A stretch of DNA of 64,000 nucleotides, taken from assembly GCA_947460975.1 (NCBI GenBank), contig CANHGO010000003.1, positions 112,517 through 176,516 on the forward strand, written 5' to 3'. The notes below the pieces were generated by a model. That model saw only the letters and a program-made list of their open reading frames with translations. It was not told the origin of the DNA and searched no databases. The position numbers and the translations under genes were made by a program. Source of the stretch: Cytophagaceae bacterium. GTDB lineage: Bacteria > Bacteroidota > Bacteroidia > Cytophagales > Spirosomataceae. Positions 1,287-26,815 of the stretch are shown piece after piece (the stretch's first letter is position 1; each line of letters opens with the position of its first letter).

Positions 1287-3446
1287 TTATTCTATTAAAT
1301 ACCAAGTGTACGAATCAGGAGCAATCGTAAAGTCCAACGTAATATCTTTGGTAGGACTTAACAAAATGGCTTTTTTCTTTCCTTCTTTCGAGGTAAGATT
1401 AGCTATTTTTGAAATGCCCGTATAATACAAAGGCAAGGTGATTTTCCGCTGCATAATTTCTTTGGTCGGATTATAGAGCATCACAAAACCTTTATGCTTT
1501 CCCCCGGGATTTACATGTAAAAATCCATCCCAATCCCGGCCATCCGGTCGGCGCAATTGGATCATATCCGCATTCAACACAACGCGGTATTTTTTGTACC
1601 AGTCTAACGTTTCTTTCACCATGATTCTAGTTTCTTCACTATCAAAAAGTCTTGGCCCTCGATAACAGGCTTGTACCCCCGCCCCGTAATATTGAATCAT
1701 GAGTTGGTGATAATCTTTTAGATGCTCTTTTAACGGTTCTAAAACCGCCTCAGGCCCGCCCCCTTGATACCGGGTTAATGGCACAAAACCCCAGCTCATC
1801 GCCGCTGTTTTTTCAATCGTCCCATCATGGATATTTTGTCGATTCAATATTTTTTGTTGGTCCCTCGAAAGGCTAAAATTCACCTCGCGATACCCGATGC
1901 CAATCTTATGCGTCCCATCTAAAAAGTACCAATCGGGAGCATTGATATAGACGCCTTTTTCATTGAGCCAACGATATAATTCCTTCTGAATTTCCATTTG
2001 GCGCCACTGGGAATCTTTCAAACCTTCATGGCCCGGGTGTACCGTAGAAGCACAAACATCTCCCGGATAAGGCCCGTCATTTTCCCAAATATCAAAACCC
2101 GTTTTCGTATAAAATAACTTTATTTTATCTCGATAAGCCAGTCCCCACGGACTTCCAAAACAAGGAGCATTTCCAAAAAATGCACCACCTGGTTTGCCCG
2201 TTTTGGGATCGATGACATCGTCGGCGTCGCTGATGCGCCGACTACTAAACAATGAATATCCGCCAATCAAAATGTTTTTAGCGTGGGCATAATCGGCTAG
2301 TGATTTCCAACGATTTATATTCGCCGCGGTCGAATCCTCCATTTTCAAATGACTCCCAAAACTCAGAATAACCGCTTCATAACCCGTAGCCACACATTGG
2401 TCAATGGCCGTTTTAACTTCAGCATCATTCTTACTAACCAGGTGCATAAAGATCGGATTTTGAGTTGTCCACGGCGCAATTTTTTGATACATTTTTCGAA
2501 TCATTAAACCCCTTCTTTGGCGATCATAACTATCCATGAGCAACTCATGCGTTCTCGGAGATTTAAAAACCTCACCTGGTTTCAAGTCGATGCCCGGGGC
2601 TTTCTCTGGATAAATTTCCAACAAACAGGGCGTCTCAAAATTATAGTTGACCTGCGAAGTATAAGTAGGCTCCGTCTTCCAATGCGTCGTTTGATCACTT
2701 ATGTCATAGCGCATCGCATTGTTAAATGCGTAATTGGTCTCCACATAAATGCCATGCTGTTTCTTCATTTCCTCCGGTTTCCCTACTACCGCACTTTCTT
2801 CTTCCACTAATCCCAACACCTCATGAATCACTCGGTCAACCCCTATTTTCACCAAACTCTTGTTTTCAATTTGTACCCATTTGACGAGCAAGGGCAACCC
2901 GTCGATCAACTCATAATTCACATATACATGAATGCCTTTAAGTTCCGGAAGGGGCGAGGTAAATTCAAAAGAAATTTGTTTTCCCGTAGCCTGCCCATGA
3001 TTGGAAGCCCATGTTTTTCTTTGCCAAGAAATAAAGGGTTTCACATCTGAAATAGTCGAGCCGACAAATACAAAATCCTCTTTTCCCGCAGTCATTTGCG
3101 ATAACCATTCGGGCTTTAAATAGGCCCTTTCTTTTTGGCCCTCCATGCCTCCCACCGCATACATTTTCCCGTTTAAAACGACCTTTGCCTCAGGCTGCAC
3201 CGCCCGCAAAAGTTGTTGGCCATTGCTTACATTGACATAACTATAACAGGCTAAATTCTTACCTAGGTAAAATTCTCTTCTCAAAAGGCCATTGTCTAAA
3301 ATAATATTGGAACCCTTTTGGATGATCGTCGATTTCTGTTGGGCAGGCTTAACTAACCAATCATTTTGCAGGGGAACAAATTGGCTTTTACTTTCTAATG
3401 ATAAGAAAATTAGGATTATAGGGAAATATTTTAGTATTTTCATCAC
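1287..3446 (-). CDS. Putative secreted glycoside hydrolase (alpha-galactosidase-like)
   Basis: 719 aa with signal peptide. Central region resembles a TIM barrel (WENDGPYPGDVCAS, INAPDWYFLDG) and the C-terminus a beta domain (GFVMLYNPTKEIMQRKITLPL). Family assignment is tentative. Confidence 0.55.
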   Translation of the reverse strand: MMKILKYFPIILIFLSLESKSQFVPLQNDWLVKPAQQKSTIIQKGSNIILDNGLLRREFYLGKNLACYSYVNVSNGQQLLRAVQPEAKVVLNGKMYAVGGMEGQKERAYLKPEWLSQMTAGKEDFVFVGSTISDVKPFISWQRKTWASNHGQATGKQISFEFTSPLPELKGIHVYVNYELIDGLPLLVKWVQIENKSLVKIGVDRVIHEVLGLVEEESAVVGKPEEMKKQHGIYVETNYAFNNAMRYDISDQTTHWKTEPTYTSQVNYNFETPCLLEIYPEKAPGIDLKPGEVFKSPRTHELLMDSYDRQRRGLMIRKMYQKIAPWTTQNPIFMHLVSKNDAEVKTAIDQCVATGYEAVILSFGSHLKMEDSTAANINRWKSLADYAHAKNILIGGYSLFSSRRISDADDVIDPKTGKPGGAFFGNAPCFGSPWGLAYRDKIKLFYTKTGFDIWENDGPYPGDVCASTVHPGHEGLKDSQWRQMEIQKELYRWLNEKGVYINAPDWYFLDGTHKIGIGYREVNFSLSRDQQKILNRQNIHDGTIEKTAAMSWGFVPLTRYQGGGPEAVLEPLKEHLKDYHQLMIQYYGAGVQACYRGPRLFDSEETRIMVKETLDWYKKYRVVLNADMIQLRRPDGRDWDGFLHVNPGGKHKGFVMLYNPTKEIMQRKITLPLYYTGISKIANLTSKEGKKKAILLSPTKDITLDFTIAPDSYTWYLIE

Positions 3447-3465: not shown

Positions 3466-5079
3466 ATGCGAAATATACTCATAATTTTTTGTTCTCTTTT
3501 TCCCTTATCTGGGCTATTTGCAAACCCACAAAATCCAGTCAAAAAACCCAACATTGTTTGGATCGTGTGTGAAGACATGTCGCCTCACCTCGGTTCCTAT
3601 GGCGAAAAAGTCGCTAAAACACCGGTATTGGACCAATTAGCCAAAGAAGCAGTTCGCTATACCCAAGTATATTCGACCGCCGGAGTATGTGCCCCAAGTC
3701 GCTGTGCGCTCATCACCGGAAATTACCAAACCGCCATCGGTGGACATAACATGCGCACCTTAGGTCTTTCTGCCAATGCATTAGATGATTATCCCAAAGG
3801 CCTAAAACCCTATTCGGCCGTCATTCCAGCTGGCGTAAAATGCTTTTCCGAATACCTCCGAATGGCAGGCTATTATTGCACCAATAATGCCAAACAAGAT
3901 TATCAATTTGACGCACCGGTAACAGCATGGGACGAGAGTAGCAAGAAGGCTCATTGGCGTAAAAGGCCAGATAAATCTCAGCCTTTTTTCTCTGTTTTTA
4001 ATATTGAGACAACACACGAATCCCAAGTTTGGGTTCGAGAAAAACAAGCCCTTTTGGTTAATCCCAAAGATGTAATGGTGCCGCCTTTTTATCCCGATGA
4101 TTCGGTGAGCCGTAAAACCATGGCGCGTTTTCTGTCGAATGTGATGGTGATGGACCAACAAGTTGGCGCGATCATCAATCAATTAAAAGAGGATGGTTTA
4201 TATGAAGAAAGCATCATCTTTTTTTACAGCGATCACGGCGATGGGATGCCTTTTGTGAAGCGGGAATTAAGCCAACGAGGCCTAAAGGTTCCATTGCTGA
4301 TTAAAGCACCTAATTTGCCCAAAGGAAAAGTAGATAATCAATTGATCAGCTTCGTTGATTTTGGACCTACAGTCCTTTCCTTAGCCGGCGTGACCTTGCC
4401 TAAAACGCTTCATGGACAGCCTTTTTTAGGGAGTCAAAAAGCAAAAGCAAAGCGTCAATATATTTATGCCGCCCGCGATCGAATGGATTCGGAATATGAC
4501 CGAGTGCGTGCTGTCAGTGATGGCCGATTTAAGTACATCCGGAATTATATGCCTGAAAAATCATACTATCAAAACATTAAATACCGACTTCAAAACCCGT
4601 TGATGTTACACATCTTAGCACTGAAAGATGCGGGTAAATTGAATGAAACGCAAATGAAATGGTTTAGGCCAACCAAAGCCTTGGAGGAATTATTTGACAC
4701 TCAAAACGATCCGCATGAGTTTAATAATTTGGCGAATAACCCAACCTATAAAGATAAATTAGTCGAGCTAAGAGGAAAGCATTTGGCTTGGATAAAACAA
4801 TATGGTGACCTGGGGGCTAAGCCTGAATTAGAGATGATTAAAGAATGGTGGAACGGCCAAGATAAACCTCCGGTAACGGAAAAAAGTAATGTGGCCATCG
4901 CAAATGGAACAGTCCAATTATCATGTCCAACGGCCGGTGCATCCATTGGTTTTAGAAAGAATTCTAAGGAGACTTGGCAAGTGTATACGAAGCCATTCTC
5001 ATTAAACAATGGAGATTCGCTGTACGTCATGAGCCATCGAATTGGCTTTGTACCTACCGAAATACGGTTGAAAAATTAG
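3466..5079 (+). CDS. Secreted sulfatase (Cys-type) with C-terminal beta extension
   Basis: CAPSR motif (AGVCAPSRCALITG) for formylglycine formation; N-terminal NIVWIVCEDMSPHLGSYG and FFYSDHGDG motifs; signal peptide. Confidence 0.9.
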   Translation: MRNILIIFCSLFPLSGLFANPQNPVKKPNIVWIVCEDMSPHLGSYGEKVAKTPVLDQLAKEAVRYTQVYSTAGVCAPSRCALITGNYQTAIGGHNMRTLGLSANALDDYPKGLKPYSAVIPAGVKCFSEYLRMAGYYCTNNAKQDYQFDAPVTAWDESSKKAHWRKRPDKSQPFFSVFNIETTHESQVWVREKQALLVNPKDVMVPPFYPDDSVSRKTMARFLSNVMVMDQQVGAIINQLKEDGLYEESIIFFYSDHGDGMPFVKRELSQRGLKVPLLIKAPNLPKGKVDNQLISFVDFGPTVLSLAGVTLPKTLHGQPFLGSQKAKAKRQYIYAARDRMDSEYDRVRAVSDGRFKYIRNYMPEKSYYQNIKYRLQNPLMLHILALKDAGKLNETQMKWFRPTKALEELFDTQNDPHEFNNLANNPTYKDKLVELRGKHLAWIKQYGDLGAKPELEMIKEWWNGQDKPPVTEKSNVAIANGTVQLSCPTAGASIGFRKNSKETWQVYTKPFSLNNGDSLYVMSHRIGFVPTEIRLKN

Positions 5080-6569
5080 CTTCCCGACGACTTTTGCTTG
5101 GCCGTTCTTCCCCAATCAGGAAGGTCGATATGCAGGTTATCGTGCTTTTCCAACATCTCCTTTTTCAATAGATTTCGCATCCTTAAAACTTGACTTTGTC
5201 GGGCTTTATCTTGCGCCAAATTATGCTTTTCCCACGGATCTTTTTTAAGGTTAAATAGTTGGCTTGTCAACACCCCATCCACATTATACAAAATCAATTT
5301 GTAGCCATCCTTTGTTTTCAAACTCCTGCTCCAATGCCCATATACGTTATAAATTTGTTCTCTAACGGCTTTGGTTGGATTGCGGATAATCGCCTGTAAA
5401 CTTTTTGCCTCTACGCTTTTAGGTGCTTTGATATTCAAATAATCATAAATCGTAGGCGCAATATCACTCAGATAAACAAAGGAATTATTCCGCACATTTT
5501 TGGGTATTCCCGGACCCGAAAAAATCATAGGAACTCGAATGCTATGTTCGTATAAATTTTGCTTTCCCAAGAGGCCATGTTGGCCCATCGCCAAGCCATT
5601 ATCTCCCGCAAAAACAATCAACGTATTTTTTAAAAATCCTTCTTTTTCCAGCGTCGACATGATTCGCCCGATCTGCTCGTCGAGCTCTGAAATCATTCCA
5701 TAATATGCCGCGATATCTTCTTTAATCGCTTCTTCGGTTCTTGGGTGTGGCAGTAAATTCTCATCACGCACATTTAAATCACCATTGTTAAAGGGATGCT
5801 CCGGAAGGAAATTAGTGGGCAAAGAAATTTTGGAAGGATCGTATGCTTTGGCAAATTTTGCGGTGGGTGTCCTCGGGTCATGCGGGGAGGTGAAGGCCAC
5901 GTAGGCAAAAAAGGGCTTTTCTTTTGCCGTAGGACTTTGTAAAAAATCAATGGCAGTTTGCGCGTACAAATAGGAGCTGTAGGTTTCACTTAAAAAACTT
6001 TTTTCAGCGGGATATTTCCCCGTGGGATCAAAGTGGTTCACCCGAGGATGTTCCTGTCCACCTTCTTTTGGAAAGTGCATGCCACCAAAAAATATATGAT
6101 CGGCTTTTGAAAACATACGCGTATAGGAATTTTTGTCACTATGCCATTTGCCTGTATGAAAAGTGGTATATCCTTTTTGGCGCAACACTTCGGGTAGACT
6201 AACCAAGCTGTCGGGAATTATATTTCCATCACCCGGCAATCGATTTACATATCTCCCCGTCATTAACATCGCCCTGGAAGGAATACAAACTGCGCCCTGA
6301 TGTCCACCCATCACGTGTGCTTGTTGGAATGTCAAACCAACCTTGACCAACTTATCCAAATTTGGGGTTTTGATTTCCTTGTTCCCTAATGCTTGAATCG
6401 TTCTGAATGTTTGATCGTCACTGTAAAGGATAATTACGTTTTTTGCCGGAGCAGTTTTAGCCTTTGTATGTGAAATAACTTGGCCCATCATGTCGTTTAT
6501 GGTCAGTGACCATATGCATAAAAACAATAACTTGAGAACGGGATTTTTCATGATTTTAGGTCTAAACAA
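5076..6569 (-). CDS. Secreted sulfatase (Cys-type)
   Basis: NVIILYSDDQ, CIPSRAMLMTGR and GDNGLAMGQHGLLGKQNLYEHSIRVPMIFSGPG motifs. Confidence 0.9.
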   Translation of the reverse strand: MFRPKIMKNPVLKLLFLCIWSLTINDMMGQVISHTKAKTAPAKNVIILYSDDQTFRTIQALGNKEIKTPNLDKLVKVGLTFQQAHVMGGHQGAVCIPSRAMLMTGRYVNRLPGDGNIIPDSLVSLPEVLRQKGYTTFHTGKWHSDKNSYTRMFSKADHIFFGGMHFPKEGGQEHPRVNHFDPTGKYPAEKSFLSETYSSYLYAQTAIDFLQSPTAKEKPFFAYVAFTSPHDPRTPTAKFAKAYDPSKISLPTNFLPEHPFNNGDLNVRDENLLPHPRTEEAIKEDIAAYYGMISELDEQIGRIMSTLEKEGFLKNTLIVFAGDNGLAMGQHGLLGKQNLYEHSIRVPMIFSGPGIPKNVRNNSFVYLSDIAPTIYDYLNIKAPKSVEAKSLQAIIRNPTKAVREQIYNVYGHWSRSLKTKDGYKLILYNVDGVLTSQLFNLKKDPWEKHNLAQDKARQSQVLRMRNLLKKEMLEKHDNLHIDLPDWGRTAKQKSSGS

Positions 6570-6667
6570 TTGGGAGGTGTTCTGTCAAAAAATAAGAAGT
6601 ATTAAATCTTAAATACCTAAGAACCGATCGAATAATTCGAGGATAATTTTGCTCTAAATAAATCGTA

Positions 6668-8143
6668 CTATTTAGCTGTTTCTTCCACTCGAACGGTGTC
6701 AATTTCCAAAGGCCATTTGCCTTTGAAACCAAAATCAACCGTTAAACCCGGCCTCATTTTTTTCAATTTGGCCACACCCGCTTCGGTAAATTTGCTTTGC
6801 CATAGAAACACTCTTTTCAACGATTTGATTTTCGCTAAACTCAAGATGGCCGCATCAGAAACTTGGGTCCCGTATAGATTTAATGATTCTAAATATTTCA
6901 AATTTTCTAATGCTACAACCCCCTTATCACTTATGTTGGTATGGTCTAAATCCAACTGGATTAATATCGGCATGTCAGCAATTTGAGGCATAAAACTATC
7001 GGTAACTTTCGTTTGCCCTAATTTTAATTGGACTATTTGCTCTTGAACCGAAGACAATTCCGACAATTCTTTATCGGCAAGTCCATGTGCATTCACGGCA
7101 TTGACCTCCAAAAATGCTTGGTCTTTCGCCGCTGGGTTCACCAATAATCCCAATTTTCGTAGGCTGGCAATATCATCCTCATCAGCCTCAGAAATGGACA
7201 TTTTAAACACTGGAGACCAATAAGGTTCCGTCGACGATGTACCCGATGCATATTTGGCCAAAATGGTTTTTATTTTAGCATCGGCAGGCAAAGCCACCAC
7301 CTTTTTCTTGAAGTCAGCTCCATGTTGGACCCACCACTGCAAAACAGCAATCTCATCCTCCGTCATCGGGGTTTTTCCTTTAGGCGGCATGTGATGCTCT
7401 TCACTCGCATCCATTAAAAGTCTTTTGATCATTTCACTTTCCAGTGGCATTCCCGCTTTAATAATAGCACCATCCTCTCCACCCGCCATTAAAAACTCAG
7501 GCGTATCCATCCTTAATTTCCCCTTTTGCTTTTCGGCATTGTGGCAAGACCAGCACTTTTGTTTTAAGACCGGTTGGACTAATTGCTGGTACACAATCGC
7601 TTGTTGGATATTGTCAATCTTTGGAATAATAGCTCCGCCCTCAGCCGCTTCGGCCCGAGCTTCCATCCCGACCCAACCTCGAATTGGTTGAGGCAAGTAA
7701 GCAGTTAAATAATCCGAACCATGCGTTAAATTTCCGCCTAAATGTCCTGTGATGGTGATTAGAACTAATGAAACCCATAAGACGGGTTTAAACAATTTCA
7801 TCATCGTTTTTTCATCGGACCAAAACTTAGCCATATAAGCCAAGGCCGCTGAAATTACCCCCGTAGAAATGCCTAACCATTGGTGAAAAAACAAGGTATC
7901 TTCATCGTATTCACCTGTTTGGGACAAAGCCCAGCCCATGGCGCATGAAATGAAGGCACTCAAAGAAGCCCATAAAAATATAGTCGCAACAGATTTTTGA
8001 CGCAAGCCCTCGTGCTGTTCTTTTGAAAAAAAGTACATTAAAAAGGCAAGCACGAGCATCCCGACAGGCAAGTGTACGAGTACGGGATGAAAATGCCCAA
8101 AAAACAATACCCAATCCGATGGGCCTGCGTCCAATAAAATCAT
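6668..8143 (-). CDS. Membrane protein with c-type cytochrome domain (PSCyt1-like) and LRR-like C-terminus
   Basis: N-terminal transmembrane segments (DWVLFFGHFHPVLVHLPVGMLVLAFL...); heme motif CWSCH; HMPPKGK; C-terminal leucine-rich repeats (LKYLESLNLYGTQVSDAAILSLAKIKSLKRVFLWQSKFTEAGVAKL). Confidence 0.8.
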   Translation of the reverse strand: MILLDAGPSDWVLFFGHFHPVLVHLPVGMLVLAFLMYFFSKEQHEGLRQKSVATIFLWASLSAFISCAMGWALSQTGEYDEDTLFFHQWLGISTGVISAALAYMAKFWSDEKTMMKLFKPVLWVSLVLITITGHLGGNLTHGSDYLTAYLPQPIRGWVGMEARAEAAEGGAIIPKIDNIQQAIVYQQLVQPVLKQKCWSCHNAEKQKGKLRMDTPEFLMAGGEDGAIIKAGMPLESEMIKRLLMDASEEHHMPPKGKTPMTEDEIAVLQWWVQHGADFKKKVVALPADAKIKTILAKYASGTSSTEPYWSPVFKMSISEADEDDIASLRKLGLLVNPAAKDQAFLEVNAVNAHGLADKELSELSSVQEQIVQLKLGQTKVTDSFMPQIADMPILIQLDLDHTNISDKGVVALENLKYLESLNLYGTQVSDAAILSLAKIKSLKRVFLWQSKFTEAGVAKLKKMRPGLTVDFGFKGKWPLEIDTVRVEETAK

Positions 8144-8148
8144 GTAGA

Positions 8149-9216
8149 CTAAATTCGTTCTAATTTAATAGGATACGTTTTTTGAGACGCCCACTGAGGC
8201 ACATAAATATTATGGTCCGAATCTGCATACACATCGTGTGGATGGATAAACACTTTGTTTTCATCCTCCTTATATTGTCTCTGTAAAACGCCATTTTTAT
8301 AGATAGGATCTGATCCACCAGGGGTAGAAACAACCTTCATGTTTTTGTCTAAAATTTGCACATATCCTGAGCCAGCCCACGATCCATCCGTGCTTCTAAA
8401 ACAAGCGGCAATGATGTAGTCGCCATGTAAAACAGGCCGACAAACAAATGAACCTGGAAGGTGGTAACGCGTGATGAATTTACCGTCTAATGTGAACCTT
8501 TTTAAGCTGTTGTTCACTCGGTCTGTGATCAATAAAGTCCAATTGTTTGGATCACGTGTATCGACTAACACACCATGGCAGCAATTGAATTTATCGTCCG
8601 CATATTCACTGGTTTTTCCACCAAAATGACGAATATAGCGGCCTTTTGAATCGTATTGTGTGATGTAATTCGCTCCGTAACCGTCAGCTACATAAATGTC
8701 TCCGTTCTTAGGATTGACCGCAGTTTCAGTTGGAACAAATTGGTTTGGATGATCGTAAACACCTGTTTCCTTCGGGTATTCAATTTTAAATATTTCTTTT
8801 CCTTTTAAATCTGTTTTGATTACTTGGTGGCGGGTATTGTCGCAAATCAATAAAAACTGCTCGCCCCCTTCATTCAAAATGGTTAAGCCGTGAGCACCCG
8901 GATATGAATGTCCCCAAGTCTCTAATAATTTACCTGATTTATCGTAAATGATGACGTTATTTCTGACTTCGTTGGTCAATAAAATCAATCGGCCTTTTGC
9001 ATCTTCCACCATTTCATGGCAATCGTTCACTGGGTTTTTGCCAGCGTCTAAGATACCCCAATTGGGTACTACTTTGTATTTGAAATTTCCATGTCCAAGG
9101 ACAATTTCTCCGGCTTTTGGGGCAATTTTTTTCATAGGGGTTGAGGTTAAAAGCGATCCGCCAATAAGCGCTGAACTTGTTTTCAAGAAGTCTCTGCGCG
9201 GTAAATGCTCGTTCAT
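8149..9216 (-). CDS. NHL/6-bladed beta-propeller protein with Tat-type signal
   Basis: RRDFLKTSSALIGGSLL signal; repeated propeller strands (GDIYVADGYGANYITQYDSKGRYIRHFG; HPHDVYADSDHNIYVPQW). Confidence 0.75.
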   Translation of the reverse strand: MNEHLPRRDFLKTSSALIGGSLLTSTPMKKIAPKAGEIVLGHGNFKYKVVPNWGILDAGKNPVNDCHEMVEDAKGRLILLTNEVRNNVIIYDKSGKLLETWGHSYPGAHGLTILNEGGEQFLLICDNTRHQVIKTDLKGKEIFKIEYPKETGVYDHPNQFVPTETAVNPKNGDIYVADGYGANYITQYDSKGRYIRHFGGKTSEYADDKFNCCHGVLVDTRDPNNWTLLITDRVNNSLKRFTLDGKFITRYHLPGSFVCRPVLHGDYIIAACFRSTDGSWAGSGYVQILDKNMKVVSTPGGSDPIYKNGVLQRQYKEDENKVFIHPHDVYADSDHNIYVPQWASQKTYPIKLERI

Positions 9217-9263
9217 AATGAATTAGGTTTATTTGTAAGGTCTAAATTAATCAAATATGTTGA

Positions 9264-12044
9264 TTATGGTTTATTTATACTTTCATCAATATTAAATAAT
9301 GCATTTGCCACCATAGTTTTGGCCACCAAAATAGCCGGGTCTTTAGGTACATTATTGTCAGGGCAAAGTTTTAAAAAGGCCAAAGTCTCCTTGTTATTCT
9401 TTGAATAGTAGGCCAGCATATTCGCATAAAAAGCATTTAATTTGGCCAATTTATTTTCCGAAATAGGCTTTCCAAATAAATCTAAATACCCTTTTTTAAT
9501 AAATTCAGCGCCAGTGATTGGATACTTACGCGCAAAAAATTGGGATGCTTCGATGAACACCGGATCATTTAACGTGTTCAAAGCCTGCATGGGAGTATTC
9601 GTCCTGATTCTTCGAGAAAGACAAACATCTCGAGTCCCGGCGTCAAACGAAACCATCGTCGGATAGGGACTACTTCTCCGCCAGTATGTATAAAGCGATC
9701 TGCGCCATTGGTCTTCTCCATCACTCTTTTTCCATTGCATCCCACTATATGGGGCATTCCAAATACCATCGGGTTGGTCTGGCATGACACTCGCTCCCCC
9801 CAATTTAGTGGATAATATTCCTGACCAAAGCAGCGCTTGGTCACGCAATTGTTCTGGGTTCAATCGAATTCTTGGGCCCCGAGTGATGTAGCGATTGTAT
9901 GGATCTTTCTCACGCACCTTTTCCGAAACTATGGAGGATTGTTGGTAACTCGCAGACATCACGATGTATTTCAACAACTCTTTCGGTTGGTACTTAAATG
10001 TATATTGAAATTGATACGCCAAATGATCTAATAAACCTTGGTTTACAGGGGTCAGGCCTTGGCTGCCTAAGTCCTCTAAAGTTTCTACAATTCCAGTACC
10101 AAACAACTGCTCCCAAAAACGATTCACCGCCACTCTGGCTGTCAATGGATTCTCTTTTCCACCCATCCATTCGGCTAATTCTAAGCGATTTGAAACTGGT
10201 TTTTTACTAAACAAAGCTGGAATTCCCCGCGTCACTTCTTGGCCTTGATTTAGCCACGAGCCTCGGTTAAATAGTCGGGTAGGCCTAGTAAATTCCACGG
10301 GATTTTCTAATATAACGGGTGTCGTCGTTTCTGGCGATGCGGAAATAATTTGATACGCAATTTTTTGAAAATCAGTCGGTTTTAAATTGGCCGGGACCTC
10401 GGGGATCATCATCCAAAAACCGATCGAAGCCGTGTTTTGATCTGGCTTTGTTTTAGCATTTTTAAACTCCCAAACTAAGTCTTGTTTTCCAGCTAAGGAA
10501 GAAATTTTATAGAAAGCATAAGCCCAACCTTTAACCCATGTGCCCTTAGGTTTAGCATATTTTTCTTGTAGGGTTGTGTCTAATTTTAAGCGGGCAACAA
10601 TGGGCCCCGAATTAGTTCCTTGGCGAATGGTAATATAGGTAGGTGCTGGGCCAGAGTTTTTACAAGCAATCATTAAGTTTGTTTTTCCCATTAATGGCAC
10701 GGCTTTAAATCGGACCGATCCTCCATTTCTTACGGCCAAATATTTGTTATCTGATAGAGCCCCGTTGACAAATTGGTCTGCCCAATGGGGGTGAATTTTA
10801 GGTTCTACAAAACGTAAGGTTTGAGTCCACTCCTTTTGTATTTGCTTCGGCTGAGTTAATAAATAATTCTTTAAACTATCCAATTTTCCTTGATCTTGCT
10901 GCTTAAAATGGCGATAATTAGGCGAATCGTCGGGGATATCCTCGTCCCGCGAATTATTAAAGAAGGCCATGAACTTATAATATTCTTCGTGGCGAATGGG
11001 ATCGTAAGGATGTGAATGACATTGCACACAACCAAAACTTGTTCCCTGCAACACTTCCCAAGTGGTATTTACTCGATCTAAAATGGCTGCAGTTCTAAAT
11101 TCCTCATCTTCGGTTCCTCCTTCGTCATTGTTGGTTGTATTCCGATGAAAAGCCGTGGCAACATAATCGGATTCGGTGGGATTTGGCAATAGGTCGCCGG
11201 CCAATTGCTCTTTTAAAAATAGGTTGTAAGGTTTATTTTGATTGAAGGCGGAGATGACATAATCGCGGTATTTCCAAATGGTTCGCGCATCGTCTTTTTC
11301 ATATCCTTTGGTGTCGGCATACCGTGCTAAATCCATCCACATCGACGCCCATTTTTCACCAAAATGTTGGGATTTTAATAATTTATCGACTTGCTTTTCA
11401 TAGGCATTGTTTGACGCATCAGCCTCAAATTCTTGATATTCTGCTGGCGTGGGTGGCAATCCAGTTAGATCTAAATAAAGCCTGCGTAGTAAATCTGGTT
11501 TTGATGCTTTTTCGGCGTGGCCTAAGCCTTGTTTTTTTTGTTCTGCGGCTACAAAATAGTCGATGTCATTAGCTTCCCAGCCCGATTTAATTCCAATGAA
11601 TGCGAGGGTTCTACTCCACCAATTGCCATTTGGAATGGAAGGCTCTTTAAGGGGCTGGTATGCCCAATGTTCTCCCCAACGTGCACCTTCTTTGACCCAG
11701 GTGGTTAAAATATCGACCTCATCTTTTGTCAATGAAGGCCTTTGATAAGGCATTTTTTCCTCTGGATTTTTGGAATGCAATCGCTGAATGAAACTCGAGT
11801 TTTCCGGTTGGCCCGGAATGATAGCCGGCTTCCCCGACTTCGTTTTGCCCAAAGCCTCTTCTTGGAAAAGTAGGCTAAATCCACCTTGTTTTTTCACACC
11901 GCCATGGCATGAAATACAGTTTTTATTGATGATAGGTTTGACCTGTGTGCTATAATCGATGGTGTAGCTTGGCCCAGAGCCCATTTGGAAAAAAGTCCAA
12001 ATCCCTCCTAATATCACAGCCCCAAAAAGAATGAATGCTTTCAT
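9264..12044 (-). CDS. DUF1549/DUF1553 protein with N-terminal cytochrome c-like (PSCyt1) domain
   Basis: CISCHGG heme motif; DLTGLPPTPAEYQEFEAD and WMDLARYADTKGYEKDD (DUF1549); NPLTARVAVNRFWEQLFGTGIVETLEDLGSQG and RIRTNTPMQALNTLNDPVFIEAS (DUF1553). Confidence 0.92.
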   Translation of the reverse strand: MKAFILFGAVILGGIWTFFQMGSGPSYTIDYSTQVKPIINKNCISCHGGVKKQGGFSLLFQEEALGKTKSGKPAIIPGQPENSSFIQRLHSKNPEEKMPYQRPSLTKDEVDILTTWVKEGARWGEHWAYQPLKEPSIPNGNWWSRTLAFIGIKSGWEANDIDYFVAAEQKKQGLGHAEKASKPDLLRRLYLDLTGLPPTPAEYQEFEADASNNAYEKQVDKLLKSQHFGEKWASMWMDLARYADTKGYEKDDARTIWKYRDYVISAFNQNKPYNLFLKEQLAGDLLPNPTESDYVATAFHRNTTNNDEGGTEDEEFRTAAILDRVNTTWEVLQGTSFGCVQCHSHPYDPIRHEEYYKFMAFFNNSRDEDIPDDSPNYRHFKQQDQGKLDSLKNYLLTQPKQIQKEWTQTLRFVEPKIHPHWADQFVNGALSDNKYLAVRNGGSVRFKAVPLMGKTNLMIACKNSGPAPTYITIRQGTNSGPIVARLKLDTTLQEKYAKPKGTWVKGWAYAFYKISSLAGKQDLVWEFKNAKTKPDQNTASIGFWMMIPEVPANLKPTDFQKIAYQIISASPETTTPVILENPVEFTRPTRLFNRGSWLNQGQEVTRGIPALFSKKPVSNRLELAEWMGGKENPLTARVAVNRFWEQLFGTGIVETLEDLGSQGLTPVNQGLLDHLAYQFQYTFKYQPKELLKYIVMSASYQQSSIVSEKVREKDPYNRYITRGPRIRLNPEQLRDQALLWSGILSTKLGGASVMPDQPDGIWNAPYSGMQWKKSDGEDQWRRSLYTYWRRSSPYPTMVSFDAGTRDVCLSRRIRTNTPMQALNTLNDPVFIEASQFFARKYPITGAEFIKKGYLDLFGKPISENKLAKLNAFYANMLAYYSKNNKETLAFLKLCPDNNVPKDPAILVAKTMVANALFNIDESINKP

Positions 12045-12047
12045 AAT

Positions 12048-13508
12048 TTAGGTCAAAATGGGTTTAATAACTTTACCATATACATCGGTCAATCGGAAAT
12101 TTCTTCCTTGGAATGGAAATGTAAACTCCTCATGATTAAATCCAAGGCAATGTAAAATAGTCGCCTGAAGGTCATAAATGGATGTTTTTCCATTGACCGT
12201 CGCATAGCCCAGTTCATCCGTTTCCCCAAAACTAAATCCAGGTTTTATTCCTCCACCCGCTAGCCACATCGTGAATGCGTCTGTATGATGGTCGCGACCA
12301 AAATAGTCTTGAGTCTTTCCTTCTCGGTTTTCTTGCATCGGTGTGCGTCCAAATTCCCCGCCCCAAACGACCAAGGTTTCATCCAATAAACCTCTTTGTT
12401 CTAAGTCGATGAGCAGAGCTGAAATCGCGCGATCTGTTTCTAAACATTTTTGATGCAATCCGTAGTCGACCGATCCGCTTTTACTCGTTCCGTGTGAATC
12501 CCAACCCCAATCAAATAATTGGACAAATCGCACTCCTTGCTCGACCATTTTGCGGGCGAGTAAGCAGTTGTTGGCAAATGCCTCTTCCCCCGGTTTGGTT
12601 CCATACAATTGATGGATGTATTCAGGCTCCTTGCTGATGTCCATGACTTCGGGCACCGAGCTTTGCATTTTATAGGCCATCTCATATTGGGCAATTCTTG
12701 CCACCGTTTCTGGGTCGCCAAATTCCTTAAACGTCTCTTCGTTGACCGAATTGATTGCGTCAATGCTTGCTTTTCGAATATCAGCATTCACCCCATCGGG
12801 GTTTTGAATGAACAACACAGGTTCGCCGGCGGATCTACATTGGACGCCTTGGTATACGGAAGGGAGGAAGCCACTTCCCCAGGCCGACTTCCCCGCGTCG
12901 GGGTTTTTGCCGCCTGAAGCGAGGACCATAAATCCGGGTAAATTTTCATTTTCAGAGCCTAGGCCATAGGAAACCCATGAACCTAAAGAGGGCCGACCTA
13001 ATCTCGCCGAACCCGTGTGCATGAGCAATTGGGCCGGCGCATGGTTAAACTGATCCGTGTACATCCCCTTTAAGAAGGTTATTTTATCGGATTGAGTGGC
13101 CAAATGGGGCATGTGGTCGGATATCCAATGTCCTGATTTTCCGTGTTGGGCAAATTTAGCTTTGGGCCCCAATAAATTAGGGATGCCTCGAATGAAGGCA
13201 AATTTCTTTCCCTCGATCAATTCTTTGGGACATTCTTTTCCGTCAAATTTGGCTAATACCGGTTTATAATCGAACAGTTCCAGTTGGGAAGGCGCCCCAG
13301 CCATGTGCAAAAAGATAACCGATTTTGCTTTGCCAAAATGGGGAGGAATTTTAAATGCTGAGTTTTGTGGCTTGCTAGAAGTCTGGCAGTTCCAAAGGGC
13401 AGATCCCAAAGCAAGGGAACCAATACCCGTACCTAGAGTATTTAAAAAATGCCTTCTAGTCGCTAAAATAGCTTCGTTTTCAATAGCCTCTTTAAATATT
13501 TTTTCCAT
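12048..13508 (-). CDS. DUF1501 domain-containing protein with Tat-like signal
   Basis: TRRHFLNTLGTGIGSLALGSALW; KSVIFLHMAGAPSQLELFDYKP; WGGEFGRTPMQE; GRDHHTDAFTMWLAGGGIKPG. Confidence 0.92.
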   Translation of the reverse strand: MEKIFKEAIENEAILATRRHFLNTLGTGIGSLALGSALWNCQTSSKPQNSAFKIPPHFGKAKSVIFLHMAGAPSQLELFDYKPVLAKFDGKECPKELIEGKKFAFIRGIPNLLGPKAKFAQHGKSGHWISDHMPHLATQSDKITFLKGMYTDQFNHAPAQLLMHTGSARLGRPSLGSWVSYGLGSENENLPGFMVLASGGKNPDAGKSAWGSGFLPSVYQGVQCRSAGEPVLFIQNPDGVNADIRKASIDAINSVNEETFKEFGDPETVARIAQYEMAYKMQSSVPEVMDISKEPEYIHQLYGTKPGEEAFANNCLLARKMVEQGVRFVQLFDWGWDSHGTSKSGSVDYGLHQKCLETDRAISALLIDLEQRGLLDETLVVWGGEFGRTPMQENREGKTQDYFGRDHHTDAFTMWLAGGGIKPGFSFGETDELGYATVNGKTSIYDLQATILHCLGFNHEEFTFPFQGRNFRLTDVYGKVIKPILT

Positions 13509-13513
13509 AGCAA

Positions 13514-14884
13514 TTAATCCATGATGGGTCTACCTTTTGTTTCTGGCAAATATATGATACCTACAATTACCGTGATCGCAGCCAAGGTGATGGGGTAAAA
13601 AATTCCGGCAAAATTGGAATGTGTGACGGCACCTAACCAGGTGGCTACGAAGGGAGCGCAACCTCCAAAAACGCCATTGGCAAAATGATAGGGGATAGAC
13701 AACGAGGTATAGCGAATTTTGGTGGGGAATAGTTCCACTAAAAATGCGGCAATCGGGCCATAGGCCATCGCGGCAAAAGTCACTAATAAACAGCAAATAA
13801 ACGCGAGTTCTATTTTACCCCAGTTGGTCAGCAGCACCGCCCCATTCACCATCGTTCCTTCTTTGCCCACAATATCAGACATCCAAGCAAACAAGGGATA
13901 ATAAAAAATAGCGGCTAGGGCCATACCGCCTAACATAATAACTTTTCGGCCCACGCGATCTGAAAGTGAACCAAACACGACAAATAATGGCGTTCCCACG
14001 ACCAAGGAAGCGGCAATCACTAAATTGGTCGTGACAAAGTCGACCTGCAGTATTTTATTAATGAATATTTGCGCGTAGAACTGACCTGTATGCCAAACGA
14101 CTCCCTGGCCTATGATGGCCCCAAACATCGCAATCAGCATTAATCGGCGGTTTTCTTTCGAAGCAAATGCCTCCTTCAATGGATTTTTAGATAGTCCGCC
14201 TTCCGCTTTTAATTTTGCGAATAAAGGCGATTCATGCATATTTCTACGAATAAAATAGGAGACCACGACTAAAATTCCCGAGAGGGCAAAGGGAATGCGC
14301 CAACCCCATTCTTTAAATTCCGCATCGCCAATGATATTTTGGCAAACCAAAACCACAATGATGCTGACAAAAAAACCTAAGGTTGCCGTAGTTTGAATGT
14401 AGGCTGTGTATTTTCCTCGGTGTGCATCTGGCGCATATTCAGCGACATATGTGGCGGCGCCTCCATATTCACCCCCTAATGCTAAGCCTTGGATGATACG
14501 CAAGAATAATAAGATGGCAGGAGCTACTAGGCCGATTTGAGAATAGGAGGGAATGAATGCAATGGCAAACGTGGATCCTCCCATTAATAATAAGGTTAAC
14601 AAAAAGGTATATTTTCTGCCGATTCGGTCTCCCAGGCGTCCAAAGATGACTCCTCCAAAAGGCCTTGCGATAAATCCAGCCCCAAATGCCGCTAACGTGG
14701 ATAAAAAGGCGGCCGTTGGGTCATCTTTAGGAAAAAATGACAAAGAAATAATAGCTGATAAAGAACCAAAAATATAAAAGTCATACCATTCAATCACCGT
14801 TCCTACGGAGGAGGCAATAATGACTTGCCATAGTTTTTGAACAGGTATTTTATTATTATCGAATTCAGGATTCGAAGTGGGCAT
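13514..14884 (-). CDS. MFS transporter, metabolite:H+ symporter (MHS)-like
   Basis: SVGTVIEWYDFYIFGSLSAI; ARPFGGVIFGRLGDRIGRKYTFLLTLLLMGGSTFAIAFIPSY; RIIQGLALGGEYGGA. Confidence 0.88.
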   Translation of the reverse strand: MPTSNPEFDNNKIPVQKLWQVIIASSVGTVIEWYDFYIFGSLSAIISLSFFPKDDPTAAFLSTLAAFGAGFIARPFGGVIFGRLGDRIGRKYTFLLTLLLMGGSTFAIAFIPSYSQIGLVAPAILLFLRIIQGLALGGEYGGAATYVAEYAPDAHRGKYTAYIQTTATLGFFVSIIVVLVCQNIIGDAEFKEWGWRIPFALSGILVVVSYFIRRNMHESPLFAKLKAEGGLSKNPLKEAFASKENRRLMLIAMFGAIIGQGVVWHTGQFYAQIFINKILQVDFVTTNLVIAASLVVGTPLFVVFGSLSDRVGRKVIMLGGMALAAIFYYPLFAWMSDIVGKEGTMVNGAVLLTNWGKIELAFICCLLVTFAAMAYGPIAAFLVELFPTKIRYTSLSIPYHFANGVFGGCAPFVATWLGAVTHSNFAGIFYPITLAAITVIVGIIYLPETKGRPIMD

Positions 14885-15051: not shown

Positions 15052-15342
15052 ATGGGAAACACTGTTTCAATTAAAGACCTTGCCCGTAAATTCAAGTGTG
15101 CCCCTTCCACTATTTCTCGGGCTTTGAATGATCATCCGATGATCAACATAGACACGAGAAAGACTATTCAGGAATATGCAAACAAAGTGGGGTATCAAAA
15201 AAATACGATATCCCTCAGTTTATTAAATAAGTGTTCAAAGACTTTAGGTGTTATCATTCCCTCCATTTCTCATTATCACGAGACGTCCATTATAGAAGGG
15301 CTTGAGGCTGTTTTACAACCTTGCCAGCTTTTCTTTTTATAG
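15052..15342 (+). pseudogene. Truncated LacI-family regulator (HTH plus start of ligand-binding domain)
   Basis: VSIKDLARKFKCAPSTISRALNDHPMINIDTRKTIQEYANKVGYQKN is a clear LacI HTH; the ORF stops at 96 aa just after LGVIIPSISHYHETSIIEGLEAVLQP. In-frame translation past the stop gives PVCISF then another stop. Confidence 0.7.
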
Positions 15343-15380
15343 CCTGTTTGCATTTCATTTTAGCTTGCAGGCTTTTTTTT
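15341..15380 (+). terminator. Possible terminator (weak stem, T8 tract)
   Basis: AGCCTG...CAGGCTTTTTTTT with a 21-nt loop. Confidence 0.4.
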
Positions 15381-15441
15381 ATAATTAGTCTATAAAAATC
15401 AAGAATCTGATTAAATTTGTTTTTTATCTAAATAAAATTCT

Positions 15442-16044
15442 ATGTTTAATCGAAGAGAAGCAGTTTCCCGAATAGCCATGATGGTCGGTGGTGCATTTAC
15501 CGCACCTACTTTATTTGCCATGGATGTGAAGGAAAGCGGGAAATTTTTGAATGCAGATGTGTTTTCATTAACAGACGCTCAAAGACAAATAGTGGCTGCC
15601 GTGGCAGAACACATTATCCCTAAAACAAATACAGCTGGCGCAATCGACGCAGGCGTTCCCGCATTTATAGAATTGATGTTGAAGGACTGTTACAAAGCTC
15701 CTGAACATGCCAGTTTCCTAAAGGGCGTGAACGATTTAATGAAAGCTAAATTTTTGTCTCAAAATCAGGATGGCCAAGTGGCTGTTTTGACGCTTTTGGA
15801 ATCGAATACAAAGGACATGATGCGCAGCTATCAACAACGTAGAATGAAGGTGGGTGATAACGTAGACAAGGAAACGTTGGAAGGTGCGAATGGCGTTCCA
15901 TTTTGGCGTTTGATCAAAGAATTGACTCTTTTAGGATACTATACTTCAGAAAAAGGGATAGAGGCATCGTTTGTATACCAACCTATCCCCGGGAAATTTG
16001 AGGCAACCAAATTATTGCCTGGTCAAAAATCATTTCAATATTAA
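15442..16044 (+). CDS. Gluconate 2-dehydrogenase subunit 3-family protein (Tat signal)
   Basis: NRREAVSRIAMMVGGAFTAPTLFA signal; LTDAQRQIVAAVAEHIIPKTNTAGAIDAGVPAFIELML; located directly upstream of a GMC oxidoreductase. Confidence 0.88.
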   Translation: MFNRREAVSRIAMMVGGAFTAPTLFAMDVKESGKFLNADVFSLTDAQRQIVAAVAEHIIPKTNTAGAIDAGVPAFIELMLKDCYKAPEHASFLKGVNDLMKAKFLSQNQDGQVAVLTLLESNTKDMMRSYQQRRMKVGDNVDKETLEGANGVPFWRLIKELTLLGYYTSEKGIEASFVYQPIPGKFEATKLLPGQKSFQY

Positions 16045-16057
16045 TTTTTAGCATAAG

Positions 16058-17776
16058 ATGAACATAAATATAGATGCCATAAAGGGTCAAACTTTCGACG
16101 CGATTGTCGTTGGCTCAGGAATTTCAGGCGGTTGGGCCGCCAAAGAATTAACAGAAAAGGGATTAAAGGTAGCCGTTATTGAGCGTGGTCGTGAGATTAA
16201 ACACATTGAAGGATACGAAACTGCGATGAAACACCCTTGGGAATTTGATCACAGAGGCAGACCTACCAACATGGCCGCGGAGGAATATTGGGCGGGTATG
16301 CGAACTGGGTATACGCCTAATGAGGAGCATCGTTATTTGTTTGAGAATGATAAACAAAATCCATACATCGAGAAGAAAGGTGGGTTTGATTGGATACGCG
16401 CGTACCATACCGGAGGAAAATCTCTTTTATGGGGACGTCATTCGTATCGTTGGAATAAACAAGATTTTGAAGCGAATGCCAAAGATGGCATCGGGACCGA
16501 CTGGCCTATTCGCTATGAGGATATGGCGCCATGGTATTCTTACGTAGAGAAATTTGCAGGAATTTCAGGCCAAGCCGAAGGATTGGATGTGTTGCCAGAT
16601 GGTGAGTTCCAACCAGCGATGGCGATGACGGCTCCGGAAGTACATTTTAAGAATGAAGTAAATAAAAAATTAGGCCGACCTGTTACTTTAGGCCGTGTGG
16701 CACATTTAACAAATCCTGGAAAAGTTCACACGGATTTAGGTCGAAGCTCATGTAATTTTAGAAATAAATGTATGCGCGGATGCCCTTACGGGGCTTATTT
16801 TAGTTCTTTATCGGCGACCTTACCAGCAGCGATGCGCACAAAACGTTTGACGATGGTGCATAATTCGATTGTCTCTGAAATTATCTATGATGAGGCTACC
16901 CAAAAAGCGAAAGGGGTACGTGTGATTGATCAAAATACCATGGAGGTAAGAGAGTATTTCGCAAAAATTATTTTTGTGAATGCGGGGGCTATCGGCTCTA
17001 CCTCTATTTTAATGAATTCAAAATCAAGTCGTTACCAAAATGGATTAGGAAATGATAGTGACCAATTAGGTCGCAACATCATGGATCATCATTTAAATGT
17101 GGGGGCTTCGGCAACCGTTGAAGGATTTGAGAGCGATTATATGTTTGGTAACAGACCTAACAGCCTTTATATCCCTCGTTTCCGCAACTGGGGAAAAGAT
17201 AAGCGTGATTATATCCGTGGATTTGGATATCAGGGTGGAGCCAGTCGTGATGGTTGGGGACGCGGAACGGGTATGGACGGATTTGGGGCAACTTTCAAAG
17301 AAAGCTTAACTCATCCTGGAAAATGGAATGTAGGATTTGGTGGATTTGGTGAAATTTTACCTGATCCAAACAACCGTTTCCAATTGAGTCAAACCGTGAA
17401 AGATAAATGGGGACTTCCTGTGTTGGAATTTGAAACTTCTTTTGGATCCAACGAACTAAAAATGAGGGAAGATATGATGCATGATGCGGCAGAAATGTTA
17501 GAGGCTGCTGGATTTAAAAATGTCAATGCGTACAACAGACAAGGAACGCATATTGGCTTAGGTATTCATGAAATGGGTACGGCACGTATGGGTACCTCTG
17601 TTAAGAATTCTATTGTGAACAAACACAATCAAGTGCATGAGGTTAAAAACGTGTTTATGACGGATGGGGCTGCCATGGCTTCCTCATCTTGTGTAAATCC
17701 ATCGTTGACTTACATGGCGATGACCGCACGTGCAGCTGATTTTGCGGTAAGTGAATTGAAGAAGAAAAACTTATAG
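16058..17776 (+). CDS. GMC-family oxidoreductase
   Basis: FDAIVVGSGISGGWAAKELTEKGLKVAVIERG FAD site; C-terminal GTARMGTSVKNSIVNKHNQVHEVKNVFMTDGAAMASSSCVNPSLTYMAMTAR. Confidence 0.92.
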   Translation: MNINIDAIKGQTFDAIVVGSGISGGWAAKELTEKGLKVAVIERGREIKHIEGYETAMKHPWEFDHRGRPTNMAAEEYWAGMRTGYTPNEEHRYLFENDKQNPYIEKKGGFDWIRAYHTGGKSLLWGRHSYRWNKQDFEANAKDGIGTDWPIRYEDMAPWYSYVEKFAGISGQAEGLDVLPDGEFQPAMAMTAPEVHFKNEVNKKLGRPVTLGRVAHLTNPGKVHTDLGRSSCNFRNKCMRGCPYGAYFSSLSATLPAAMRTKRLTMVHNSIVSEIIYDEATQKAKGVRVIDQNTMEVREYFAKIIFVNAGAIGSTSILMNSKSSRYQNGLGNDSDQLGRNIMDHHLNVGASATVEGFESDYMFGNRPNSLYIPRFRNWGKDKRDYIRGFGYQGGASRDGWGRGTGMDGFGATFKESLTHPGKWNVGFGGFGEILPDPNNRFQLSQTVKDKWGLPVLEFETSFGSNELKMREDMMHDAAEMLEAAGFKNVNAYNRQGTHIGLGIHEMGTARMGTSVKNSIVNKHNQVHEVKNVFMTDGAAMASSSCVNPSLTYMAMTARAADFAVSELKKKNL

Positions 17777-17891: not shown

Positions 17892-19418
17892 CTATTTTAT
17901 TTCAGCGATGGATTTGCGCATAATTCTAGTCCAAATCTCGTAGCCTTTTTCATTAAAATGAAGTTTATCATCGATATGTAATTGGGGTTGATATTTTCCA
18001 TCAGCACCTAACAGAGCGCTCGCCGTTTCGACAAAATACATGTTGGGTTTAGTGGAGCTGTAATTTTTTATCAGCTCATTGGTCTCCTGAATTTTATCCC
18101 AAACGGCCCAACGGCGTTCATTGGGGGAAATCGCAATGTAATAAATGGGGGTATTCGGGAATTTTGAACGAAGTAATTTTACGACATATTTATAGGTTTC
18201 AAGAATTTGGAGTGGGCTTTTATCTTGCTTGCTCACCGACAAATCATTGCTTCCAGAATACATATAAATAGCTTTTAAGGAATGATTAAAAGCGATTCTT
18301 GGAATGTAATAAGCCATTTCACTGATGTTTGATCCCCCAAATCCATGGTGAATAATTTCAGCTGGGCCCAAATCTTTTTTAATGGTTTTCCATAATCGTA
18401 TGAATGAGCTGCCCGTAAATAATAGGGCATTAGAAGAGTAATTTGTTTTTGAATCTTCTATTTCATGCGCTTTTATCTCTTTTTCAAACCGAGTAATATT
18501 GGGCGTTGTTTTAGAGCGATTGACCAGGGCATAAAGCCATTCGCCAACTTCCTGCAGCGAAGAAAGGATGGCGGGCTTATTGTTGTCTAAGGTGTGACCT
18601 AAATTTTCGGATAATTTGACACCCGTGGGCACCCCTTGGTTTAAGGCTCTTTCAAAAATAATTTGGCTTCCATATTTAAAATTATGGTAGGCAAAAGAGG
18701 AATCAAAAGGAACTGTTTTATCTGCCGTTCCATGGACATTGAATACGGGAACGTCTCCCGTATTTAGCCAGTTAAAATTGACCATCGCCCCCCAGAAATT
18801 AACCACTCCATGTATTTTAGACGAAAATCCTTCGTTGCCCGAAGTCCCTTCCATGCTGCCATTTTTTGCCAAATCGATGTAAGCGGGAACTTCTTTTTGA
18901 TCCAAATAGGCCAAGTGCAAAGCGGTCATCGCGCCGGCAGATCCACCAGCAATGTAAATTTTACTTGTATCGATGCCGTAATTTTCCGCATTTTTTCTAA
19001 AAAATCGAACCGCTGCTTTCGCATCTTGAACGGCACGAATCATGGCCTCAAAATAGGATACGTCTGATTTAGGTTCTGCAATTCCTAATCGGTAATTGAT
19101 GGACCCCACCACAAACCCTCTATGACTTAGATTTTCCGAAACGACTCTCGAGTAGCCAGTTCGTTTATCGCCATTCACAAAACCGCCCCCATGGACAAAA
19201 ACGACTAATGGGCGTTTTTTCAACGTGTCATTTTTAGGAGAGTAGACATCCAGGGAATGCTTCTCTATTTCATTTTTAATATTGACCGATTGGCCATATG
19301 GAATATTCAATAAGGTATCAATAGCTTCAAAAACGATATTTTTATAACGCTTTTGGCCTTGGCTAAAGCTAGAAAAGGAGATAAAAACAAGAATTAAGGG
19401 GAAGTATATTTTTTTCAT
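17892..19418 (-). CDS. Two-domain esterase: alpha/beta hydrolase fused to SGNH/GDSL-type hydrolase
   Basis: N-terminal LVVFVHGGGFVNGDKR and IYIAGGSAGAMTALHLAY (HGGG oxyanion hole, GxSAG); C-terminal LLFTGSSFIRLWKT, HHGFGGSNISEM, YSGSNDLS, LHFNEKGYEIW (SGNH-like blocks). Confidence 0.85.
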   Translation of the reverse strand: MKKIYFPLILVFISFSSFSQGQKRYKNIVFEAIDTLLNIPYGQSVNIKNEIEKHSLDVYSPKNDTLKKRPLVVFVHGGGFVNGDKRTGYSRVVSENLSHRGFVVGSINYRLGIAEPKSDVSYFEAMIRAVQDAKAAVRFFRKNAENYGIDTSKIYIAGGSAGAMTALHLAYLDQKEVPAYIDLAKNGSMEGTSGNEGFSSKIHGVVNFWGAMVNFNWLNTGDVPVFNVHGTADKTVPFDSSFAYHNFKYGSQIIFERALNQGVPTGVKLSENLGHTLDNNKPAILSSLQEVGEWLYALVNRSKTTPNITRFEKEIKAHEIEDSKTNYSSNALLFTGSSFIRLWKTIKKDLGPAEIIHHGFGGSNISEMAYYIPRIAFNHSLKAIYMYSGSNDLSVSKQDKSPLQILETYKYVVKLLRSKFPNTPIYYIAISPNERRWAVWDKIQETNELIKNYSSTKPNMYFVETASALLGADGKYQPQLHIDDKLHFNEKGYEIWTRIMRKSIAEIK

Positions 19419-26772: not shown

Positions 26773-26773
26773 A

Positions 26774-26809
26774 ATAGGTTTAAGGGAATTTGATTTCCCT
26801 TAAACCTAT
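26774..26809 (-). terminator. Terminator of galM (minus-strand reading)
   Basis: ATAGGTTTAAGGGAA-loop-TTCCCTTAAACCTAT, followed on the minus strand by TTTATAATTTTTTT. Confidence 0.75.
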
Positions 26810-26815
26810 CATTGA

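Follow-up and report, generated by a model that had tools for sequence, protein, structure and literature searches.

Conservation of a four-gene cytochrome and beta-propeller core in Aquirufa and other Bacteroidota, with a possible role in oxidative carbohydrate breakdown in the envelope

Which of six closely spaced genes in a genome of Aquirufa (Cytophagales) belong together, and what might they do? The genes lie in a window of 64,000 nucleotides, the whole stretch of DNA that was analyzed. A first-pass annotation had described a six-gene minus-strand run with short gaps and CxxCH motifs in two of the proteins, and had suggested that this is one operon for an envelope redox system acting on a sulfated or oxidized carbohydrate or carboxylate. 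The open reading frames and their translations agree with the description. All six are confirmed between 5076 and 14884, with intergenic gaps of 98, 5, 47, 3 and 5 bp in the order C to H.

5076..6569, minus strand: C, sulfatase; an addition 3′ of the core that only the closest relatives share (Pfam Sulfatase; gene orders)
6668..8143, minus strand: D, core gene; DUF2231-like membrane domain, PSCyt1 heme c and LRR-like C-terminus (Pfam, alignment)
8149..9216, minus strand: E, core gene; Tat-type NHL beta-propeller with a PAL-like active site (Pfam, profile and fold search)
9264..12044, minus strand: F, core gene; PSCyt1, PSCyt2 (DUF1549), CBM6-like insert and PSD1 (DUF1553), with two heme-c motifs (Pfam, model, fold search)
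12048..13508, minus strand: G, core gene; Tat-type DUF1501 protein (Pfam, alignment)
13514..14884, minus strand: H, MFS transporter nearest to the metabolite/H+ symporter subfamily (Pfam MFS/Sugar_tr; TIGR00883)

Pattern scans for promoters and terminators found no clear split in this run, which is weak evidence. An Rfam search of the window gave no match, and gene A (1287-3446) matched no Pfam family and resembled no solved protein convincingly.

How far is the set preserved in other genomes? The conserved unit is the four-gene core D-E-F-G, to which H is added within Aquirufa, and C in the closest relatives only. Of the 80 Bacteroidota loci that hold E, 62 have at least one of D, F and G in the same directional run, and these partners are kept in several different gene orders; in the other 18 loci E has none of the three in its own run. 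PSCyt2 is found in 37/38 Cytophagales genomes with E and in 6/108 without it, counts that ignore phylogeny. A functional link between the four core genes is very likely, and the co-location of orthologues across Bacteroidota is in favor of the earlier proposal. The six genes are not upheld as one unit, because C is a local addition and H is confined to Aquirufa. C is absent next to D in most other genera, and in other Aquirufa a large invasin-like gene follows D instead. The best match of H is to TIGR00883 (MHS) at 349.6 bits, under the curated cut-off of 443.45, and it is therefore called MHS-like. In one branch H is replaced by GntP together with a Gfo/Idh/MocA protein.

Three CxxCH motifs occur across the cassette, two in F and one in D. 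Their positions, and that of a further domain within F, are as follows.

7541..7555, minus strand: D heme-c motif CWSCH, residues 197-201 (translation; invariant in 60/60)
10395..10787, minus strand: F insert between DUF1549 and DUF1553, a CBM6-like beta-sandwich at about residues 420-550 (model strands, fold search)
11016..11030, minus strand: F second heme-c motif CVQCH, residues 339-343 (translation; kept in 48/48 aligned full-length homologues)
11904..11918, minus strand: F first heme-c motif CISCH, residues 43-47 (translation; kept in 47/48 aligned full-length homologues)

This conservation, too, speaks for the earlier reading. The Pfam domains of F are clear (PSCyt1 53.3 bits against a cut-off of 22, PSCyt2 273.4 against 29.8 and PSD1 273.7 against 28.5). 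CBM6 structures are among the top fold matches for the insert, and homologues of F carry CBM_6 (L062, L109) or Laminin_G_3, while the fold search with the F model gave no match for DUF1549/DUF1553 beyond the CBM6 part. G matches the full DUF1501 profile at 493.5 bits against a cut-off of 27; compared with solved structures, DUF1501 gave weak matches only, to sulfatase/LtaS-type proteins. We know of no reaction for DUF1549, DUF1553 or DUF1501, and a literature search found no paper treating DUF1501 and DUF1553 together. Both G (TRRHFL) and E (PRRDFL) have twin-arginine starts.

In D the PSCyt1 domain is above the Pfam cut-off, and DUF2231 is a weak match at 24.6 bits against a gathering cut-off of 26.4, reaching 27.6 bits in the paralogue L060. 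His19, His24, His87, His134 and His141 are invariant, together with the CxxCH motif, in 60/60 aligned full-length homologues. From this pattern the five membrane histidines probably bind b-type heme. A literature search on DUF2231 met it only in a single paper, on a database. Elsewhere in the same genome a single 932-aa protein combines DUF2231, PSCyt1, PSCyt2 and PSD1, and is thus a fusion of the D and F types. This paralogue, the probable b-heme domain of D and the PAL-like site of E all go beyond the earlier annotation.

PAL is an animal peptide-hormone enzyme. A profile search matches E to rat PAL at 6e-13, and PAL (3fvz) is its best match in a fold search of the PDB (1.3e-13, TM 0.64/0.69). 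Six of the seven PAL site residues are present. The propeller fold, the three zinc histidines, the catalytic Tyr/Arg pair and an equivalent of Asp787 are all shared, and H109, Y180, H214, R233, H327 and D328 of E are invariant in 81/81 sequences. PAL Arg533 aligns near N82 of E, which is N in 78/81 and D in 3/81. Arg533 is not conserved, and E is therefore named PAL-like rather than a PAL. It differs further in being bacterial and Tat-exported, and in adjoining cytochromes rather than a copper monooxygenase. On balance E is probably a PAL-type lyase.

Further genes lie outside 5076-14884, across a divergent promoter.

15052..15342, plus strand: remnant of a LacI-family regulator, divergent, 96 aa of about 342 (sequence; full-length copies in relatives)
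15321..15322, no strand: deletion junction, with the 3′ part of LacI, SusC and SusD gone (blastn breakpoints)
15442..16044, plus strand: I, Gdh3-type small subunit with a twin-arginine start; looser partner (Pfam Gluconate_2-dh3; 3′ of SusD in relatives)
16058..17776, plus strand: J, GMC oxidoreductase; looser partner (Pfam GMC)

Measured against L162, the deletion spans about 5.7 kb. Relatives have LacI-SusC-SusD-Gdh3-GMC opposite the cassette across the divergent promoter, with SusC and SusD present in L067-L070 and L162. Neither the deleted genes nor the Gdh3-GMC pair had figured in the first-pass annotation. The arrangement in relatives resembles the SusC/SusD polysaccharide utilization loci (PULs) of Bacteroidota; the window differs in having lost SusC and SusD, and the core proteins are redox- or lyase-like, not glycoside hydrolases. 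The solved protein nearest to J is the large subunit of fructose dehydrogenase (6.5e-42), and J is close to the catalytic subunits of fructose and glucose dehydrogenases. With J as GMC subunit and I as Gdh3 subunit, the pair is like LacABC lactose 3-dehydrogenase and the FAD dehydrogenases of fructose and glucose. It differs from them in that the window has no separate cytochrome gene beside I-J, the nearest being F and D, and in its loose tie to the core. Orthologues of I-J also occur in Aquirufa genomes without E, and outside Aquirufa J is within 10 kb of the core in two further loci only. As strict members of the set, H and I-J were rejected, both being found without the core. An envelope redox set in a carbohydrate setting, as first proposed, is nevertheless borne out by the conserved heme motifs, the co-location, the CBM6-like domain of F and the LacI, SusC and SusD genes of relatives, and we consider a combined redox and carbohydrate role of the core likely.

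The neighborhoods across relatives do not agree on one substrate. In Emticicia a phosphogluconate dehydrogenase and a gluconokinase-family kinase lie beside E, and GntP is a neighbor of the cassette in relatives. These give a hint of gluconate as product; gnd_rel was not found in this genome, which is incomplete. GH29-type genes accompany E-D in Arcicella (L090, L094), and in L155 and L157 they stand between H and I-J, with Pfam confirming the assignment for L155. Fucose was tried as the substrate in the window and dropped, because the strong GH29 genes of the genus are mostly in Aquirufa genomes without this E, and a GH29 search of this genome found none. Nor is a sulfated substrate, which the first-pass annotation had favored, a defining trait, because sulfatases flank E in few relatives only.

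Quite possibly, D-E-F-G is a conserved, membrane-linked envelope system for the oxidative breakdown of carbohydrate. F would bind and oxidize carbohydrate, or else be reduced by a GMC dehydrogenase, for example I-J. E, using zinc and its Tyr/Arg pair, would cleave the oxidized intermediate by lyase chemistry at a hydroxyl-bearing carbon, and G would take off a substituent. Electrons would enter D at heme c and pass through membrane b-hemes to quinone, and in Aquirufa H may import the small, probably acidic product. The whole chain F-E-G-D-H in this form is tentative. As a reading of the sequences, the system is suggested by the linkage of the core, the invariant heme motifs and histidines, PAL-like E, the CBM6-like domain of F, the D-F fusion, the carbohydrate-related neighbors and the seven DUF1080 genes of this genome; the DUF1549/DUF1553 regions that have no fold match, the loss of Arg533, the discordant neighborhoods and the loci with E alone count against it.

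The genes might instead be adjacent by descent alone, with no common function. The 18 loci with a lone E could be read in this way, yet the same partners recur through several gene orders, the genome-level co-occurrence is strong even if it ignores phylogeny, and the D-F fusion exists, so that this is scarcely credible. If the genes do work together, E might act on peptides as PAL does, the set modifying or recycling envelope peptides rather than carbohydrates. The fold and active-site residues of E would fit, as would an aldolase-family gene that E follows in L110, whose match to 3-hydroxy-D-aspartate aldolase is below cut-off. However, Pfam recognizes no copper monooxygenase beside the cassette in the window, Arg533 is lost, F homologues carry CBM_6 or Laminin_G_3, and SusC/SusD, GntP, sugar kinases and GH29 are among the neighbors in relatives. 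We consider a role in peptides very unlikely.

Two alternatives keep the carbohydrate. F and D could be electron carriers only, replacing the missing cytochrome subunit of I-J, which would be the true dehydrogenase, a LacABC-like glycoside 3-dehydrogenase, with E and G processing its 3-keto product. The position of I-J across the divergent promoter, 3′ of SusD in intact relatives, the affinities of J and the absence of a cytochrome gene beside the pair are all consistent with this. A 3-keto route through LacABC and DUF1080 has been studied, in Bacteroidetes among others (PMC9007349), and this genome has seven DUF1080 genes. The occurrence of I-J in Aquirufa without E, and its rarity near the core elsewhere, argue the other way, and the carbohydrate-binding insert suggests that F contacts sugar directly; we think this arrangement unlikely. 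A dedicated system for sulfated glycans or sugar acids, with sulfatase C and transporter H as integral parts, is more doubtful still. In its favor are the two sulfatases that flank the core, in the window as well as in its nearest relatives, the sulfatase-like genes close to E in L109 and L139, and the sulfatases that are common neighbors of PSCyt genes in freshwater Verrucomicrobia (PMC5615132). Against this stand the gene orders, in which C is missing beside D in other Aquirufa and most other genera, and H is tied to the core in Aquirufa alone and gives way to GntP and Gfo/Idh/MocA in one branch.

How does the proposed carbohydrate system relate to the PSCyt2-PSD1 systems of Planctomycetes and Verrucomicrobia? 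F has the same domains and a CBM insert of the kind reported there (PMC5615132, PMC2754498), and the sulfatases of the window match frequent neighbors. PSD1 and PSC2 are each given as present 41 times in Rhodopirellula baltica (PMC2754498). The Bacteroidota differ in a partner set fixed as D-E-F-G, and neither a PAL-like propeller such as E nor a membrane cytochrome such as D is described in the parts of those two reports that were consulted.

It is conceivable, though unlikely, that the core is a distinct glycan-breaking machine, in which F, as a carbohydrate-binding diheme enzyme, introduces or oxidizes a hydroxyl group, E as a PAL-type zinc lyase cleaves a hemiacetal- or hemiaminal-like intermediate, and D returns the electrons to the quinone pool. 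If so, this would be a two-step route of oxidation and then lyase cleavage, parallel to the glycoside hydrolases. Genes of the PSCyt, DUF1549, DUF1553 and DUF1501 families are numerous in Planctomycetes and Verrucomicrobia, and a small, fixed set of partners with one recognizable zinc-lyase site and one likely exit for electrons makes the question of their function a testable one.

The six minus-strand reading frames of the cassette are as the first-pass annotation had described them, separated by 98, 5, 47, 3 and 5 bp. Pfam assigns them as follows:

5076-6569, minus strand: C, sulfatase
6668-8143, minus strand: D, PSCyt1 with weak DUF2231
8149-9216, minus strand: E, NHL
9264-12044, minus strand: F, PSCyt1-DUF1549-DUF1553
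12048-13508, minus strand: G, DUF1501
13514-14884, minus strand: H, MFS

The assembly holding the window is 1.5 Mb and 63% complete. D, E, F and G form a real, conserved gene set. Among the best 80 Bacteroidota loci with E, one or more of D, F and G share its directional run in 62 (D+F+G 37; D only 12; D+G 9; D+F 3; F only 1), although contig ends interrupt some of these runs; the co-location of orthologues expected from the earlier annotation is thus borne out. Several orders exist (GFED, EFGD, EDFG, FGED, DGE), and therefore the association has outlasted rearrangement. Of 146 Cytophagales genomes, 38 carry E and 43 carry PSCyt2 (DUF1549), with both in 37, E alone in one and PSCyt2 alone in six (Fisher p = 3.7e-27, uncorrected for phylogeny); 20 of the 38 have PSCyt2 within 10 kb of E. 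The order H-G-F-E-D recurs within the genus Aquirufa; only in the closest genomes is it bordered by gene A and by the sulfatases B and C. Gene A (1287-3446) encodes a secreted-looking 719 aa protein beside the sulfatases in these relatives, with no match in Pfam or NCBIfam. In several Aquirufa a very large repetitive invasin/Big_1-like gene adjoins D (L071:5292-20000, G025; L048:3-6743), in which one open frame extends over 4902 aa or more inside the stretch.

E resembles the animal peptide-hormone enzyme PAL. A profile search with E matched rat PAL (3fvz, E 6e-13) in addition to several NHL propellers, and PAL is the top PDB fold match (E 1.3e-13) of the AlphaFold model (mean pLDDT 85.6). The HMMER alignment places PAL H585, Y654, H690, R706, H786 and D787 on H109, Y180, H214, R233, H327 and D328 of E, a single offset accounting for all six PAL residue numbers, and these E residues are invariant (81/81 sequences). 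The zinc ligands of PAL are H585, H690 and H786, and Arg533 and Asp787 also belong to its active site. Arg533, which aligns near N82 of E, is not retained in E, so we call E PAL-like and not a PAL. The chance of matching 6/7 sites is ~2e-4 at ~18% identity, a rough figure because the sites were picked after alignment. The PAL catalytic dyad is Tyr651/Arg703 in human numbering (PMC10303134).

The heme motifs noted previously proved to be conserved, that of D being invariant (60/60) and those of F present in 47/48 (first) and 48/48 (second) homologues. The F model (mean pLDDT 78.2) has a predicted beta-sandwich between DUF1549 and DUF1553. In Foldseek it matches best to CBM6 structures together with GH43 enzymes, all over one short stretch, and homologues carry Pfam CBM_6 or Laminin_G_3 at the beta-sandwich position; the fold search matched no solved fold to the DUF1549 and DUF1553 parts. 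PSCyt genes with CBM inserts have been described before in Verrucomicrobia (PMC5615132). In D, M252 and the membrane histidines H19, H24, H87, H134 and H141 are also invariant (60/60), and this histidine pattern suggests b-type hemes. A 932-aa paralogue in the same genome (L060, 13463-16261; G000:C2) comprises membrane DUF2231, two PSCyt1, PSCyt2 and PSD1 (DUF1553). Since D-type and F-type domains are fused in one protein, this supports a putative contact between D and F. The fusion gene belongs to a second PSCyt cluster, adjoined by SusD-like and SusC-like genes; a DUF1080 gene lies ~8 kb off.

In relatives LacI-SusC-SusD-Gdh3-GMC lies divergent to the cassette. In the window LacI is a 96 aa remnant (15052-15442 region), the sequence jumping at 15321 to the region 3' of SusD; ~5.7 kb is missing compared with the relative L162, and SusC/SusD are cleanly gone. 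A close relative (G010, L072) has lost the same genes and kept both flanking modules; because its breakpoints differ, the loss probably occurred on two or more occasions. Aquirufa genomes where E was not found also contain H and the Gdh3/GMC pair (near each other in L155 and L157, distant in L158 and L159), which are thus looser partners. A flavin-reductase-domain protein is encoded at 674-1285; one homologue also lies near H in L155, where its neighbours are an MFS gene and a gene for a zinc alcohol dehydrogenase. Gene K (17892-19418) fuses a BD-FAE-type esterase to a GDSL lipase domain. By eye, 25114-31612 encodes GH16-like secreted, aldose-epimerase-like and Tat-type Gfo/Idh/MocA-like proteins. 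In L067 and L068, from other Aquirufa, similar genes lie close to the locus.

PSCyt2-PSD1 genes are already known, as are their CBM inserts and the sulfatases and conserved unknown genes beside them, with function unassigned (PMC5615132, PMC2754498). The literature searched, which covers few subscription journals, yielded no account of these four genes as a set or of a PAL-like active site in the set's NHL member.

How might the cassette work? On our best reading, with substrate and reaction order both inferred, F would bind and oxidise a carbohydrate, or take electrons from a GMC dehydrogenase; E would split the product of F by lyase chemistry, G would take off a substituent, D would hand electrons to quinone and H would take up the product. 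In one branch of the genus (L044, L046) the place of H beside the core is taken by the permease GntP and by a Gfo/Idh/MocA protein. Of these, GntP hints at a sugar acid, as do a phosphogluconate dehydrogenase (above cut-off) and a gluconokinase-family kinase (below cut-off) that adjoin E in Emticicia. The genome has seven genes for DUF1080 (3-keto-disaccharide hydrolase), compatible with 3-keto chemistry (PMC9007349). A hint of fucose did not hold up within the genus. The hypothesis for the cassette is now sharper than that of the first-pass annotation, and it is testable.
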